Assembly (NCBI RefSeq): GCF_006274605.1
Contig: NZ_CP040846.1
Location: 2,053,041 to 2,117,040 of the forward strand
Origin: Thermococcus indicus
GTDB lineage: Archaea > Methanobacteriota_B > Thermococci > Thermococcales > Thermococcaceae
Length of the DNA: 64,000 bases
Direction of reading: 5' to 3'
The position numbers and the translations under genes were made by a program. The notes beneath the pieces are model-generated. The model was not told the origin of the DNA, did no database searches, and saw only the letters and a program-made list of their open reading frames with translations. Positions 39,167 to 63,146 of the stretch are shown here, in pieces. Numbering within the stretch: position 1 is the stretch's first letter; each line of letters starts with the position of its first letter.

Positions 39167-40477
39167 CTAAAACTCAAGCAAAAACCTCCACAGCGGGAGG
39201 CATCTCACCGTTTTCTCACCAAACTTTTCCTCACAGGAACGCCAGCCCGTGACTATTATCCCCTCATTCAGGTTGAATGCTTCCATCGCCTCTAGCAGAC
39301 CTTCGACTTCCCTTTCCCAGCTCTCGTCGATGTCCCAGCTCACCTGGATGGCACGGGTTATTTTCGGCCCCTCCTTTACGAGGAAATCAACCTCGCCCTT
39401 TCCGCGGTAGTAGTAGACCTCACGGAAGTGCTGGCGGAGGTGCCTTGCAACTGCGTTTTCAGCGAGTCTGCCGATGTTCTCGGTGAATCGGATTCCCACG
39501 ACGTTCGCTATCCCCGTGTCAATCGCGTAGAGCTTCTTTGGATAGCGCATGGCGTCCTTGACCTTCGGCGAGAGTATTGGAACGCGGAAGCTCAAATAGG
39601 CTTCTTCCATTGCGTCGAGAACGGAATCAACGAAGTTGGGCGATACCTTCCTCCCAACTATTCCAGCGAGCTCGTTCCTCAGCCTTGAAACGCTCACCAA
39701 CGAGGAGAACCTGCTAAGGGCCAGTTCAGCCACTATTTTAACGGCTCTCGCATCCCGGAAGCCGTGCCTGTAAACTATATCCCTCAGGACTATTCCCTCG
39801 AAGAGCTCCCTAAGGAGTTCAAGCTTTAAGGTTTCGTCGTCCATGAGAACAACCTGCGGAAAGCCCCCGAACTCAAGGTACTCCCGAAGAAGGGCCTCAA
39901 CTTCCTCCCTTCTCCCGAAGAGGCGTTTAACATCAGTCGAAAACCCCTTAAAGGTCAGAAATTCCCTAAAACCCAATGGGTAAACTTCAACGGTCAAAAC
40001 CCTGCCGGTGAGGAGCGTTGAGAGCTCTGAGCGGAGAAGCGAAGAGGTTGAGCCCGTTACTATGACCTTTGCTTCTCCAAGGTCGAGAACCTTTCTGACC
40101 CACTTCTCCCAACCTGGAACGTTCTGAACCTCATCGAGAATTATCAAGGGGTTCTTACCGCTGTAGACGTAGGTTCTGTAGGCGGAGAATATCTCCTCAA
40201 GGAACTCCAGCGAGAGATAGGGTGAAAACCTCGGATCCTCAAGGTTCACGTACAGAGTGGCATCGGGAGGCATACCTCCCTCTACCATTTTCGCAAGGAA
40301 CAACCCGGCCAGCGTCGTCTTTCCAGACCTCCTCGCCCCTATGAGCGCGACCGCTCCTCCGGAGAGCTTTCTCTCAATCTCCAAGAGATACTCCTCCCTC
40401 GGTATCGCGTCCCATTTCCTCCCGCCCCAAATGTTGTAGGGGGCTAAAACCTCCAGTATCTCCTCACGGCTGAGCAT
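39167..40477 (-). CDS. AAA_14/DUF4143 ATPase (first of two in the window)
   Basis: 436-residue ATP-binding protein: Walker A G-A-R-R-S-G-K-T-T (about residues 47-55), Walker B L-I-I-L-D-E-V-Q, G-S-T-S-S sensor, a middle winged-helix-like segment (V-S-R-L-R-N-E-L-A-G-I-V-G-R-K-V) and the C-terminal DUF4143 nuclease-like fold with G-E-V-D-F-L-V and I-Q-V-S. Function is not established; these are common in archaea and some are linked to mobile elements. A TATA-like TATATAAT at about 40495-40504 (minus strand) predicts a nearly leaderless mRNA, and a 10-bp-arm dyad sits just upstream. Confidence 0.85.
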   Translation of the reverse strand: MLSREEILEVLAPYNIWGGRKWDAIPREEYLLEIERKLSGGAVALIGARRSGKTTLAGLFLAKMVEGGMPPDATLYVNLEDPRFSPYLSLEFLEEIFSAYRTYVYSGKNPLIILDEVQNVPGWEKWVRKVLDLGEAKVIVTGSTSSLLRSELSTLLTGRVLTVEVYPLGFREFLTFKGFSTDVKRLFGRREEVEALLREYLEFGGFPQVVLMDDETLKLELLRELFEGIVLRDIVYRHGFRDARAVKIVAELALSRFSSLVSVSRLRNELAGIVGRKVSPNFVDSVLDAMEEAYLSFRVPILSPKVKDAMRYPKKLYAIDTGIANVVGIRFTENIGRLAENAVARHLRQHFREVYYYRGKGEVDFLVKEGPKITRAIQVSWDIDESWEREVEGLLEAMEAFNLNEGIIVTGWRSCEEKFGEKTVRCLPLWRFLLEF

Positions 40478-40510: not shown

Positions 40511-40536
40511 TTTTTATATTTTATGGAATATAAAAA
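40511..40536. promoter_or_regulatory. Inverted repeat upstream of the DUF4143 ATPase promoter
   Basis: Perfect 10-bp arms TTTTTATATT and AATATAAAAA around a 6-base TTATGG spacer. It lies just upstream of the presumed TATA box of the ATPase gene on the minus strand and would suit a dimeric regulator. It is AT-rich, so chance symmetry is possible. Confidence 0.45.
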
Positions 40537-40572
40537 TCGCAAAAATTGATATTATGCAGAATACAAAAACGC

Positions 40573-42072
40573 TCACTTCTTCCCGAGGAAGTCGAACAGC
40601 GTCGCCTGCTTGCCCTTCTTCTTGGGCTTGTGTATCTTCCCCCCGCTTTCCTCGACGGCTTCCATTTCCTCTTCGGCCTTCTGGAGCTCCTCCTCGCTTA
40701 TCTCTTCCTCCGCCTCTTCCCCGGTTTCCTCCTCTCCCGTGGGCTCAACCTCTCTCTCGGTCTCGTTCTCAGCGGCGACCCTCACGTGCTCCTCCAGTTC
40801 ACCGCGCTCCTTGAGCTTCTTCTCAATGTTCATGCTCTTGCCCCATATGGCCTTGGCCTTCTCCTTGTCCCCGACTATGAACTCGACCTCCTTGAGGTCA
40901 AGGTCGAGGAAGACGACGAAATGAGCGGCCATGTCCGGGTTGTACTCGAATATCGCCTTCAGGACGTTGAGGGTCTCCAGAGCCTCCAGCTTCGCCATAT
41001 GCATCTCGCTCATTATCTTCTTGACGACAGAATCCCTCAGCGAGCGCTCCGCCTTGCTCTCCGTGAGGAGCTTTATCGTCTTCGGGGGATAAATCCGCAC
41101 GAAGCCCTTCTTTTTGACACCTGCAACGGCAACCCCCGCGGTCATCATGTCGGTGGCGTACTTCCAGAGGCCGTAGTTCCCGGTCCTCTGCGCCCTGCCG
41201 AGGTATATGTCAGCCCTGCTCAAAGCCTCGTAAGCCCTCGCTATGTCCTCGGGCTTGTAGTAGACGTAGGGGAGGTTCTCGTCTATCCACTGGAGGAGTT
41301 CGTGGGGGAACATGTCAACACCGAGCGTTGCCATCCTGGCTTTCTTCGCGTTGTCCGTGGCAAAAATCTGCGCCAGTGCCTGGAAAACGCTCTTCTCGGT
41401 GTCGCGGTAGGCCAGAACCTGGGCCGCGTCCTCGACCCCGCCCGTGACGACGGTCTGTAGATCGTTCACCGCGGCACGGAGGTCGCCGCCCGCGTGCTTG
41501 GCGATGTCGTAGAGCAGTTCCTTTGGAACCCTCTTACCCTCATGGTGGAGTATCCTGGCGAGGGCTTTGATGATGTCGCGCTGGGTCAGGCGCTTGTACT
41601 CCACTATCTGAGCCCTGCTCCGTATATCCCTGGGAACCTCCCAGTAATGGTTGGCGCTCATTATTATGGGGTTTCTCGCCCTGTCGATGAGCTTCGCTAT
41701 CTCCCTCGCCCCCGTCGGCTCGATGTTGTCTGCCTCATCCAGGAATATGAGCTTCCGCCTCTTTCCGAGGATGTCCATAGTGTAAGCGGCCTGAACGTAG
41801 CGCTCTATCTTCTCGTACGTCCTCTCGTCGCTCGCGTTAAGCTCTATGACCTCAAAACCGTACTCCCTGGCCAGAGCATAGACGGTGGTCGTCTTACCGG
41901 TTCCGGGCGGCCCCGCGAGGATGAGTGCCTTCTTCTTCGGAGGCTTCCCCTCCAGCCACGCCCCTATCCAGGCCTTGACCTGCTCTATGGCCTTTGTCTG
42001 ACCGACTATCTCGTCCAGCCGCCTCGGCCTGTACTTCTCTACCCAGGGCACTTCCCTCGGCATGGCCATCAC
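40573..42072 (-). CDS. rfcL: Replication factor C large subunit
   Basis: Clamp-loader large subunit, which opens PCNA on primer-template DNA. AAA+ domain with Walker [10 protein letters not shown] (about residues 53-61) and Walker [10 protein letters not shown]; domain III follows, then a highly acidic linker (E/T/G-rich) and a C-terminal PCNA-binding box Q-A-T-L-F-D-F-L. 499 residues, no intein. Its start overlaps the rfcS stop by 4 bases, so both subunits are made from one transcript. Confidence 0.96.
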
Positions 42073-45000
42073 TTGCCCATTATGGTGAACTGCGCCAGGA
42101 GAGCCTCGAGCTGTATCATCTCGTTGGCGCCCTCAACGAGGCGGAAGTTGTACTCCCCTATCTTGTCCGCCAGTGCAACTTTTCTGTCTTCAGGAATCGG
42201 CAGGTTGAAGACCTCCTTGTGCATCTGAATCAGCACGTCCTCACCACTGAGGCCCTGCTTGAGGAGAATCTCCCTGAGTTTCTCCCTCGCCTTGAGGAAG
42301 TTGCCCTCCAGTGCCAGGTTCATCATATCACGCACATCCTCCGGCCTGGCCCTGCTCGCCACGAGAAAGACGTTCTCGTCGGTTATCGTTTTATCGAGCG
42401 CCGCAGCCGCCTGCAGGACGTTTATTGCCCTCCTGAGATCGCCCTCGGCAACGTACAGTATGGCCTGAAGGCCGTCCTCCGTCAGCTCAAGTCCCTCGTT
42501 CTCCGCTATGTACCGTATGCGCTCGGCCACGTCCTCGTCGTTGAGCGGTCTGAAGCGGAAGATTGCACAGCGGCTCTGGATGGGCTCGATTATCTTTGAG
42601 GAGTAGTTGCAGTTGTGGCTGACGAGACCGTTGGAGATGAAGCTGTGGTCCCTGGCGCAGGTAACGTCGTAGACGTCGAGGTAGCCGAGTTCCTCCTTCT
42701 TGATGACCTTTTCGACGACGTAGCCGTTGAGCGTTCTCTCGCTCAGGAACTCCTCAAAGGTCATGAAGTCCCGTGTTAGGCCAATCGGAACGCCCCTGAG
42801 CCTGTTGACCACGAAGTCCCTCTTAACGCCGAGAACCTTAGCGGCTTGAGTTGGGTTAGTTGCGGTGGCGAGCTCAACGGCCCTCTCGGCAATCTGTGGT
42901 AGGACAATTTCCTTGTACGCCAGCTTAATCCTCAGGTATTCCCCAACGAGCCTCGCATAGGAGTCTTTAGCGTAGGCGTAGCCGACCCTCGTGAGGAAGT
43001 TGAGGTAATTGACATCGTTGGGTGTAACTATGAGGCGGACGGCGAACTTTCCATCGGCCGGGGAAACCACTATCTTTGACTCCACATCAAACTCTCTAAG
43101 GAGTCCGGCCAAATCGTTGAAGAACTCGGTTGTCTCCTCAAGGCTCTCCCTCGTTGCGCGCATCTCAAGCTTTATCCCGTTGAAGTTGTACTTCCTTCCG
43201 CTCGGCTTTGTCCCGTCCGCTCCGAAGAGTCCTCTCAGGAACTCCCTCTTGATGAAGAGGTTGCCCCTCTTTATCCACTCCGGAACGGTGTAGCCGTTGG
43301 AGGTTTTGTTTCCTGCTTTGACTCCCCAGAAGCGCATGAGCGCGTGGAAGGCCGAGCTGTCAACGTAGAGCATGTGTATTTTGCCCTCAACCTTTCTTCC
43401 GCGGATTTCCGATGAGACTTCCCTCTCGATTATTTCAGAGGGCTTTAGGCCGAGTCTCCTGAGGTCTTCGGCGAGGGCCTCAAGCTCCTCCTTACTTGAG
43501 TTGAACCAAACCCTCTTGTGTGCCTTCACGAGGTGGCCGTCGCCGAGGAGGAAGCCGAGAACCCTCGCGAGGATTCCAGCTTTCTCGTCGTCGTAGCGGA
43601 CGAGCCACTTCTCCTTGACCTCCTTAAGGATGCTGTAGGCCATTCCGCTCAGCTCGCCGTTGAGGAGCCTTTTAACGGTGGAGTAGCTTATTCCTATTCC
43701 AAACTCCTCCTCTATGACCTTCTTCACGTCCATTGCATTTCTCAAGGGCTTACCATCGCGAATCTTTCTGATTAGCTGTTTTTTGCCCTCAATCCTTCTC
43801 TCAACGTAGCCCTTCTTTTCAAGGCTCTGCAGGAACTGGTTGAGCCTCACCCTTGATAGGCCGACTTTTTCCTGCAGTTCTCTCCTCGAAATCCAGTCCC
43901 CTGGGATCTGCCCCAGGATTTCGGCCTCTCTAACCGTCAAACCGTTCTCCATCTCGGCCTTAAGCTCCAGAACCCTCGCGAGGATTTTCTCCTTATCCCT
44001 CGTGAGAAGTTCACGGAAGGTTCTCGCCTCGCCAAGCGGCTTCAATCCGTGCTCGCGCTCGATTTCTTCAAGGAAGGCAAAGAACCCCCTAAGGTCAATT
44101 ATCTGCCTCGGGTCGGGCTCGTAGGGAGTTCCCTCCAGTGTAGGCCTGACGAGGACTTCCGAGTCTTCCTTAAGATCGTAGGTCTGAACCCAGCCCGTCG
44201 GCGTGAGAAACATGTGGTCGCCAGTTGCCTCTATTACCCTTCCACTCTCAAGGGTAAGCCTGTAAACGGGGTGGCCGATTATCTTTGAGTTGAAAGCCAC
44301 CGCAGCAACAACAGTGTCCCTTCCGGCCCTGTTGCTGACTTCCTTGATGATGCCCTCCTCGAAGTGCCTGAGGAAGTCCCTAATCTTTACCTCCCTCTCG
44401 TCGGGGGTGTAGATTTTGGTGTCTCCTGTGACACAGCTCAAAATAAACCTCACGTTGTTCGAGAACATCTCCATCGTTCTCCTCAGGGCCTGCTGAGCGT
44501 CCTGGGTCAGGGCATCTGCCTCGTCGAGGAAGATTATCTTGAAGCTCGCACCGCCTATCGGCTTAGTCCTTGCGAACTCTTTCACCTTCTCGCGGATGAC
44601 GTTTATTCCGCGCTCGTCGGAGTTGTGCAGGAGGACAGGTATCTCGCCGGCGAAGAACATCTCGTTGCCCGGAACGCTGACGTCGTAGACGAAGTCGTTG
44701 TACTCAACAACCTCGACCTTCCTAACGATTAGGGCATGTAAGTCCGTCTGGGCGAGCTTTCTAAGGGTTTCTAGGATTCTCCTGCCCCTCTCGTCGAGCC
44801 TGTCCTTGTTCACCATGGCAAGAACCTTCTTCAGCGTGGCCTTCCTCACGCGCTTCTTGCCCTCGTAGAGCTGGTGCCTGAGCTCGTAGCGCCAGTTGCC
44901 CTCGATTGCACCCTCTATACTCTTGAGCATCTCCACTATCGGCTCCGCCGGAAGGAGCTCGGCCTTGCTCCAGTTCATGCCTCCCCCCAGATTAACCTTG

Positions 45001-46180
45001 CCTCCCTCTCGAAGAGGCTCGCCTCTACTCCAGAAATCCTCGCGAGCCAAACGGTGTCTATAAGCATGTCCCTTGAGACAGAGGAGACCCTAACTACTCC
45101 ACCCCACTCGCCTGTTCCGTCGCCGTCGGCAAGGCCCTTCAGGAAGGCTATCCTCTCCTGAACCGGGAACTCGAAGACGAAGCCCGGAATCCTCTTGTTT
45201 ACCGCCCTCCTGCCGTTGCCGTCGTAAAAGCTGTCCTCGAAGAACCTCGCCAGCTGGGTGTTGAGGAGCCTGAGCTGGTGCCCGCTCTTCCGCGAGCGGT
45301 CGAAGGCCGAACCAACGTCGTTCTCGTAGACGCTTATGCCAAGGTTTTCCGCAAAGGCCCTAACGCGGTCTATAAGCTCCCCCTCGTGACCTCCGAGGGT
45401 GTATATGATCTGGCCGGAGGTGTTGCCCTTGAAGCCGACAGCTCCCTCGGCGGCGTAGAGGCCGAGCATGTAGGAAAGCTCCTCGCCGACTGGAAGCTTC
45501 TCAAAGGTCCTAACCCGTGAACTCTCCTTAACCCTGTAATTGCCCACATCGAGGATGTCAAGAAAGCCCTCAAGATTGGCAGTGAAGCTGAGGAGGACTG
45601 AGCCTTCTCTCAGCTCGCTCGCCTTTATCGTTTCGAGGCCGTTCTCGGTGAGCACCATGACCGAGTGGTTCCCGGTCAGTTCGAGCTTTCCTCCTCCCTC
45701 AAGGTGAACGCGGAGTATAACTGGAACGCGGTGGCGGATTATCTTGCTCACCCTCGACCATCTGACGCGGTAGTTCTCATCAACCGTCAGGACTTCGAGG
45801 TTGTAGGCATCTTTGTAGGCAACTTCACCGTCGTTTCCGTCGAAGTAAATCTTATCGAGTTCGGCAAATGTAGTCCGAACAACCCTGCCATCAATCCTCA
45901 CGAGTATTGGGGTGTCCTTGGAAACGGAGGCGTTAAGCTCCAGAAAATTATGTTTCCAGTGCTCCCCGAAGAGTTCCCGTACTAAAGCGAGCGTAGCACT
46001 GGTCTTCCCGACACCGGGAGGACCGGCAAAGAGTAAATGGGGCATGGAGCCGGTTCTGGCGTAGTGCTTGAGCCTTTTGACTATGTGAGCCTGACCGACG
46101 ATGTCATCGAGCCTCGCGGGCCTGTATTTCTCAACCCACGGCTTTTCAAGGATCCTAACTTCCTGAACTTCATCCGGCAT
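42069..46180 (-). CDS. rfcS: Replication factor C small subunit with two inteins, frameshifted as assembled
   Basis: Clamp-loader small subunit (four copies per RFC). Exteins: 84 residues from ATG 46180 with Walker [10 protein letters not shown]; 62 residues at 44436-44621 with Walker B I-I-F-L-D-E-A-D; and 180 residues at 42069-42611 with the S-R-C arginine-finger motif. Splicing would give 326 residues, the normal size. Intein 1 interrupts L-N-A/S-D-E-R-G and intein 2 interrupts I-L-S/C-N-Y-S. The frame breaks inside intein 1 at a G6 run (44983-44988); one additional G gives W-G-G-G-M-N-W-S-K and restores continuity. An uncorrected frameshift would abolish splicing and hence an essential protein. 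Confidence 0.95.
42612..44435 (-). mobile_element. RfcS intein 2 (608 residues, LAGLIDADG endonuclease)
   Basis: Self-splicing intein starting C-V-T-G-D-T-K-I-Y and ending G-L-V-S-H-N with Cys as the +1 extein residue. It has Hint blocks (G-D-H-M-F-L-T block B-like; final H-N) and two dodecapeptides, [10 protein letters not shown] and L-R-G-L-F-G-A-D-G. It is unusually long: between block B and the first dodecapeptide lies an insertion with helix-turn-helix-like segments ([17 protein letters not shown]), probably an added DNA-binding module. Confidence 0.9.
44622..45928 (-). mobile_element. RfcS intein 1 (about 436 residues, LAGLIDADG endonuclease, frameshifted)
   Basis: Self-splicing intein beginning [11 protein letters not shown] after L-N-A and ending I-P-V-L-L-H-N before the +1 Ser. 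Block B is L-T-G-N-H-S-V-M; endonuclease dodecapeptides are M-L-G-L-Y-A-A-E-G and [10 protein letters not shown] serine replaces the more common cysteine at position 1. The frame is lost at the G6 run 44983-44988, after A-R-L-I-W, and resumes at G-M-N-W-S-K if one G is added. Confidence 0.88.
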
Positions 46181-57290: not shown

Positions 57291-57309
57291 TGTGTATTAG
57301 TAATACACA
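57291..57309. promoter_or_regulatory. Operator palindrome 1 (19 bp) upstream of the TATA box
   Basis: TGTGTATTAGTAATACACA, a perfect dyad with 9-bp arms around a central G. An identical copy lies 34 bp downstream, and the TATA box is between them. Confidence 0.85.
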
Positions 57310-57310
57310 A

Positions 57311-57323
57311 ACCTTTTATATTA
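57311..57323 (+). promoter_or_regulatory. TATA region of the second DUF4143 ATPase
   Basis: ACCTTTTATATTA lies between two identical palindromes. Initiation about 25 bases downstream falls at the ATG (57343), so the mRNA should be leaderless. Confidence 0.7.
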
Positions 57324-57324
57324 T

Positions 57325-57343
57325 TGTGTATTAGTAATACACA
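57325..57343. promoter_or_regulatory. Operator palindrome 2 (19 bp) ending on the start codon
   Basis: Identical to palindrome 1; its last base is the A of the ATPase start codon. A protein bound here would cover the predicted transcription start site. Confidence 0.85.
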
Positions 57344-62658: not shown

Positions 62659-62732
62659 TTTGTTTTTCAATTTTTGAGATGCTTAGAACTCCCACGTCTC
62701 AGCTTTTATAAAGGTATGAGAACCGGGAGTTC

Positions 62733-63146
62733 TCACTCCCCAACAACCTGCACCACAACGCGCCTTTGCCTCGGTATCACGTCGAGCTCGACGAAGAAAA
62801 TCTGCTGCCAGGTTCCGCGCACGAGCCTGCCGTCAACTACCGGGAGGCACTCGCTTGCGCCGAGAAGCGTCGCCCTCAGGTGGCTGTGGGCGTTGTCATC
62901 GATTCTGTCGTGGAGGTAGCCTTTGCCTTTGGGAATCAGCTCTCTCAAAGCCCGCTTGAAGTCCTCCAGAAGACCGGATTCATGCTCTATCGTGACTATC
63001 GCGCCAGTCGCCCCGGGAACGAAGACCAGAACCTGGCCGTTCTCGATTCCGGATTCCTCAACGATTCTCTCCACCTCACGGGTTATGTCGATGAGGTCAA
63101 TCTCCCCCTTCGTTTGAAACTTCAGTTCCCTCGTGAGAACCTTCAT
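62733..63146 (-). CDS. YjbQ/UPF0047 family protein
   Basis: 137 residues of the YjbQ fold (secondary thiamine-phosphate synthase activity reported for E. coli YjbQ; true role debated). Conserved N-A-H-S-H-L-R-A-T-L-L-G and G-T-W-Q-Q-I-F-F-V-E-L-D motifs are present, as is the V-P-G-A-T-G-A-I segment. ATG 63146 follows GGGGTGGTGGC and lies inside the 3' end of the VanZ-like gene (50-base overlap). A ThiN-domain gene further upstream in the same cluster is a suggestive thiamine link. Confidence 0.88.
   Translation of the reverse strand: MKVLTRELKFQTKGEIDLIDITREVERIVEESGIENGQVLVFVPGATGAIVTIEHESGLLEDFKRALRELIPKGKGYLHDRIDDNAHSHLRATLLGASECLPVVDGRLVRGTWQQIFFVELDVIPRQRRVVVQVVGE

Follow-up and report, generated by a model that had tools for sequence, protein, structure and literature searches.

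Private, phased palindromic operator arrays at the promoters of Thermococcus AAA_14/DUF4143 ATPase genes suggest self-controlled candidate defence ATPases

The window analysed here, a stretch of 64,000 nucleotides from the chromosome of Thermococcus indicus, carries on its forward strand a gene for a 416-residue ATPase (P0001; 57343..58593) that is preceded by two identical copies of a 19-bp palindrome, TGTGTATTAGTAATACACA. Copy 1 (57291..57309) abuts the BRE/TATA region on its upstream side, copy 2 (57325..57343) has the A of the start codon as its last base, and neither is assigned to a strand. The TATA box TTTTATAT (57315..57322, forward strand) lies inside the 15-bp spacer separating them. 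This is the arrangement described in the original prediction, and it is confirmed: the copies are 34 bp apart, and each is a perfect palindrome except for its central base. The 19-mer is unique to this promoter. With up to three mismatches allowed, TGTGTATTAGTAATACACA has no further match in the window (shuffle expectation 0.00) or in the whole 2.23-Mb Thermococcus-type chromosome. Across 11 orthologous promoters, the arms have mean pairwise identities of 0.84/0.98 (copy 1) and 0.90/0.72 (copy 2), while the three bases at the centre of copy 1 (0.32) and the upstream DNA (0.31) are no more alike than unrelated sequences would be; the TATA box is also kept in the orthologues. Conserved arms, with a free copy 1 centre and free upstream DNA, are the footprint of an operator that is read by its two arms. 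The orthologues retain this operator despite at least three different upstream neighbours. The palindrome pair is a real, conserved regulatory feature, and both its operator character and its position over BRE/TATA and start are supported by computation. Copy 2 would cover the transcription start of the predicted leaderless mRNA.

The protein combines an AAA_14 P-loop ATPase domain (residues 32–155; PF13173, 5e-31), in which the Walker A and B motifs read GPRRVGKT and LFLDEVQ and the core residues are invariant, with a DUF4143 domain (PF13635, 3e-19). Its structure model (mean pLDDT 76) features an AAA+ core, a winged-helix-like three-helix unit at about residues 215–270 (helices 215–228, 235–243 and 251–263 plus a strand at 267–270) and, at about residues 304–387, a PD-(D/E)XK-fold core of the alpha-beta-beta-beta-alpha-beta type (helix 304–323, strands 327–333, 338–345 and 348–355, helix 361–378, strand 382–387). 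The winged-helix-like middle region that had been proposed for the ATPase thus reappears in the model; domain profile searches of P0001 returned no sequence-family HTH matches. The catalytic D...(D/E)xK motif is absent from P0001, where EVDFVV is followed by IQVTY and the lysine is missing. The E-x-K signature is degenerate in P0001 and most paralogues, and is kept as VEVK/IEVK in two distant ones. Fold matches of the model, at low TM-scores, include Orc1/Cdc6 on origin DNA (2qby), STAND proteins such as Avs4, and plant NLRs. Sequence search found no solved structure among P0001 relatives, and no NCBIfam match was found for the ATPase family.

Over residues 30–412 P0001 gives a full-length match to the PADLOC PDC-S01 profile PDLC04787 (9e-90), with which it agrees in domain make-up and from which it differs in its degenerate nuclease-like motif. 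In the part of a recent census available to us, PDC-S01 is described as a single-gene system in which an ATPase is joined to a domain of the PD-(D/E)XK superfamily, and it ranks fourth in frequency among prokaryotic defence systems, though an unvalidated candidate; ATPases of this type, for which no function is established, are among the commonest prokaryotic candidate defence genes, and that part of the census holds nothing on their promoters or regulation (PMC12988326). The anti-phage defence role of P0001 has the status of a candidate, conferred by databases and literature. We found nothing in the literature on the regulation of AAA_14/DUF4143 (COG1373) ATPases, including on Thermococcales operators.

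When every pair of similar palindromes 20–80 bp apart was scored over the whole chromosome, the P0001 pair came out first in this blind scan (score 40.3), and the second-ranking pair (39.0) precedes another AAA_14/DUF4143 ATPase gene. A stricter filter, requiring a TATA-like spacer and a downstream start codon, left 11 matches, eight of them spaced 33–35 bp; AAA_14/DUF4143 ATPases account for five of these eight, and one of their sites, read on the opposite strand, makes up a sixth. The upstream regions of 2152 ORFs served as the control, with a 99% score level of 23.3. Of the nine strong AAA_14 genes in this genome, seven have pairs above this level (hypergeometric p ~1e-13). Two more distant AAA_14-like ATPases (L166, G000:C1:844006, and L202, 1575208) have pairs of palindromes spaced 33 and 32 bp apart, respectively. 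The one clear non-ATPase case is the gene for a protein with PAPS-reductase, PUA and ferredoxin domains (L200, G000:C1:1528105-1528217), which has a TATA-bracketing pair 35 bp apart. Three GTTCATRAATCRTGAAC-type palindromes, 22 bp apart, precede the gene for an HTH-nucleotidyltransferase-HEPN protein (L189, G000:C1:1318472-1318546), apparently as another private operator array. One match of the stricter filter, at 2115805 (window ~62675-62735), was set aside: its two hairpin-like inverted repeats lie between two convergent genes and are probably terminators that mimic an operator pair.

The window itself contains a second case. A 436-residue AAA_14/DUF4143 ATPase, a P0001 paralogue encoded on the reverse strand (39167..40477), is preceded by its own operator pair, consisting of copy 1, TTTGTATTCTGCATAATATCAA (40546..40567), and copy 2, TTTATATTCCATAAAATATAAA (40513..40534), again without strand assignment; the two are 33 bp apart, and copy 2 is upstream of a TATA-like sequence. 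The gene sits directly behind that of the clamp-loader large subunit. Also in the window, an intein-like sequence interrupts a replication factor C small-subunit-like ORF (42069-45050).

For the family as a whole, P0001 and four paralogues were used as queries against 61 Thermococcus genomes, yielding 115 distinct genes, and upstream pairs were accepted at a score of at least 18 with spacings of 22–60 bp allowed. A palindrome pair or triple was found upstream of 78 of the 115 genes, and in 76 of these 78 the spacing is 33–35 bp; control spacings are scattered. Since family members are related, the 76 are not independent events; there are about eleven operator clades, all with spacings of 32–35 bp. 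The pair score detects no array at the remaining 37 genes, some of which carry just one palindrome instead, or else a wide inverted repeat enclosing the TATA box. Arrays are not limited to pairs: 22 family genes have three copies, and within the T. indicus genome gene 1437569 has three with a period of exactly 34 bp and gene 966011 has four with a period of exactly 32 bp. The last copy stops no more than 2 bp from the start codon in 39 of 77 family arrays; where the genes of a clade have a 5′ leader (L010, L248 and L011 types), the array is instead placed immediately upstream of the TATA box. The proposal of a switch at a single gene was mostly right in its core idea and too narrow in its scope, as the architecture is family-wide and includes three- and four-copy arrays.

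On the ATPase protein tree the operator sequence is clade-specific, with spacing almost constant inside a clade. The P0001 clade has TGTGTATT-N3-AATACACA at 34 bp; others, in a list that is partial because further clade operators exist, have TTGGTAC-N8-GTACCAA (35 bp), TTGTACTGTAT-N-AGTACAA (34 bp), TGTTTTATNNATAAAACA (34 bp), TGTGGTT-N3-AACCACA (34 bp), TTTACCAGTATNNTGGTAAA (34 bp) and TTGCCAA-N6-TTGGCAA (33 bp). ATPases that are closer in sequence also have more similar operators (Mantel rho 0.42, 0/500 permutations); in Mantel tests by domain, the winged helix is not preferred over other domains as the part that tracks the operator. The pattern extends beyond Thermococcus to other Thermococcaceae genera (L288, L292, L293, L303 and L306), and one of these homologues (L288, 60% identical) has a near-perfect palindrome pair of different sequence. 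Roughly six of 25 bacterial and methanogen relatives, which come from plasmids, phages and viral contigs, also have paired or tripled upstream repeats (L005, L284, L325, L318, L283 and L309); the fixed 33–35 bp geometry is absent across these repeat-bearing relatives. Upstream of the ATPase start in the bacterial-type loci L284, L005, L325 and L318, the repeats take the form of three direct copies 32 bp apart, three copies 22-23 bp apart, or inverted-repeat pairs 40 bp apart.

The operators are also private. When the operator consensus of each of eight ATPases of this genome was scanned over the chromosome, essentially only own-gene sites were returned, the exceptions being a few isolated sites at two to three mismatches for some motifs. 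Allowing one mismatch, the P0001 operator is present in 13 of 61 genomes, 10 of which have it at the orthologue's promoter. The remaining three (G013, G015 and G026) lack the orthologue, and their operator site comes directly behind the same LigB-domain gene on the upstream side. Two of these, G013 and G026, still have the TATA box intact and the second copy in degraded form, and the next gene is again the one of the alanyl-tRNA-editing type. These sites are decaying scars of ATPase gene loss. In a metagenome-assembled genome (L004:2122-2767), a frameshifted remnant of a P0001 orthologue adjoins a fragment resembling the upstream threonine-synthase gene, which may represent either decay or an assembly artefact.

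We consider it likely that the palindromes form an operator private to the ATPase whose gene follows directly, and that the ATPase binds its own array and represses itself. The ATPase is an economical choice of reader because the operators are clade-specific, have one target each, survive with changing neighbours and decay after the ATPase is lost. Self-repression, already considered plausible in the original prediction, would thus be the most economical reading of an operator whose sequence follows the ATPase clade and which is tied to the gene. That the effect would be repressive is predicted from the position of the operators over BRE/TATA and the start, where bound protein would block access for both TBP/TFB and RNA polymerase. 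That the period stays constant even in arrays with as many as four copies suggests that bound units touch side by side, and the existence of three- and four-copy arrays indicates that the bound protein, and not TATA-to-start geometry, sets the register. The 34-bp spacing had been taken as close to three helical turns. In fact, it amounts to 3.24 turns at 10.5 bp per turn, and we have dropped this argument, as clades use 32, 33, 34 or 35 bp (3.05–3.33 turns); with a non-integral number of turns, same-face cooperativity is not assured.

From this we infer the following course of events. A dimer of the ATPase, or another two-fold assembly, would bind each palindrome, and adjacent bound dimers would touch at the fixed 32–35 bp register. 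Two to four bound units would then cover the BRE/TATA box, and at P0001 also the transcription start, so that the promoter would be shut. Were the ATPase titrated, or its nucleotide or oligomeric state changed, for example upon sensing a viral signal, the array would be released and the gene induced. It is also conceivable that copy 1 may have an activator role.

In archaea, small dimeric winged-helix regulators typically have palindromic operators over the TATA box, and DNA binding by the ATPase itself is a prediction from sequence. Both points count for a separate, unlinked transcription factor that would bind the palindromes and repress or activate the ATPase gene. We regard such a factor as unlikely, since every ATPase clade would need a different dedicated one with a single gene as its target, while every operator is private to its ATPase. 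Moreover, no regulator gene lies next to the P0001 gene in the window, and where a genome lacks the ATPase, the site survives only as a decaying scar. It is quite improbable that the ATPase binds the array mainly as a docking site, serving to store or assemble a defence or DNA-processing complex, with control of the promoter as a side effect. Although three- and four-copy arrays reach upstream past the core promoter, the protein combines STAND/Orc-like AAA+ fold matches with a nuclease-like domain, and PDC-S01 is a defence candidate, arrays always begin at the promoter with the last copy usually on or near the start codon, and the E-x-K signature of the nuclease fold has degenerated (IQVT in P0001). 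Finally, inverted repeats are also found at terminators and element ends, but it is very hard to believe that the palindromes represent mobile-element ends or RNA hairpins, or arose by chance, given arms that are conserved around a free centre as in operators, a position fixed relative to TATA and ATG, the same period across unrelated sequences, a score far exceeding that of 2152 control promoters, and a copy 2 that would fall outside a leaderless mRNA.

Autorepression by the ATPase would have parallels in several known systems. Restriction-modification controller proteins and type II antitoxins are autoregulated through private palindromic operators that overlap their own promoters, as is proposed here for P0001. 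However, those systems use a small dedicated regulator as the binder, whereas at the P0001 locus the sole candidate is the 416-residue ATPase itself, and the ATPase arrays differ further in having a 32–35 bp period and up to four copies. Archaeal Orc1/Cdc6 initiators, in which an AAA+ ATPase is followed by a winged helix, bind repeated sites beside their own gene. P0001 in its model has the same order of AAA+ core and winged-helix-like unit and is predicted to bind repeated sites beside its own gene; on the other hand, the TM-scores are low, P0001 has the extra DUF4143/PD-(D/E)XK-like domain, and its sites are on a promoter rather than at a replication origin. The Thermococcales regulators TrmB/TrmBL1, SurR and Phr likewise use palindromic sites at BRE/TATA or the start site. 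Those regulators serve regulons, whereas each ATPase operator has a single target gene.

The finding is larger than a single locus, as it concerns a whole family of candidate defence ATPases with phased operator arrays that are private to each gene. Tentatively, this candidate defence family might consist of one-component, self-addressed switches, each defined by a clade-coevolved DNA code and operator array, a phased assembly over its own promoter at 32–35 bp and a reader that is either a degenerate nuclease fold or a winged helix, with several mutually insulated switches per archaeal cell (eight in this genome). The private phased arrays predict that PDC-S01-type ATPases are sequence-specific DNA-binding, self-controlling proteins, the binding site of which could be read from their own promoters. 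The operators would thus offer a ready DNA ligand for biochemistry and structure determination, a reporter for the inducing signal and an orthogonal set of hyperthermophilic promoters.
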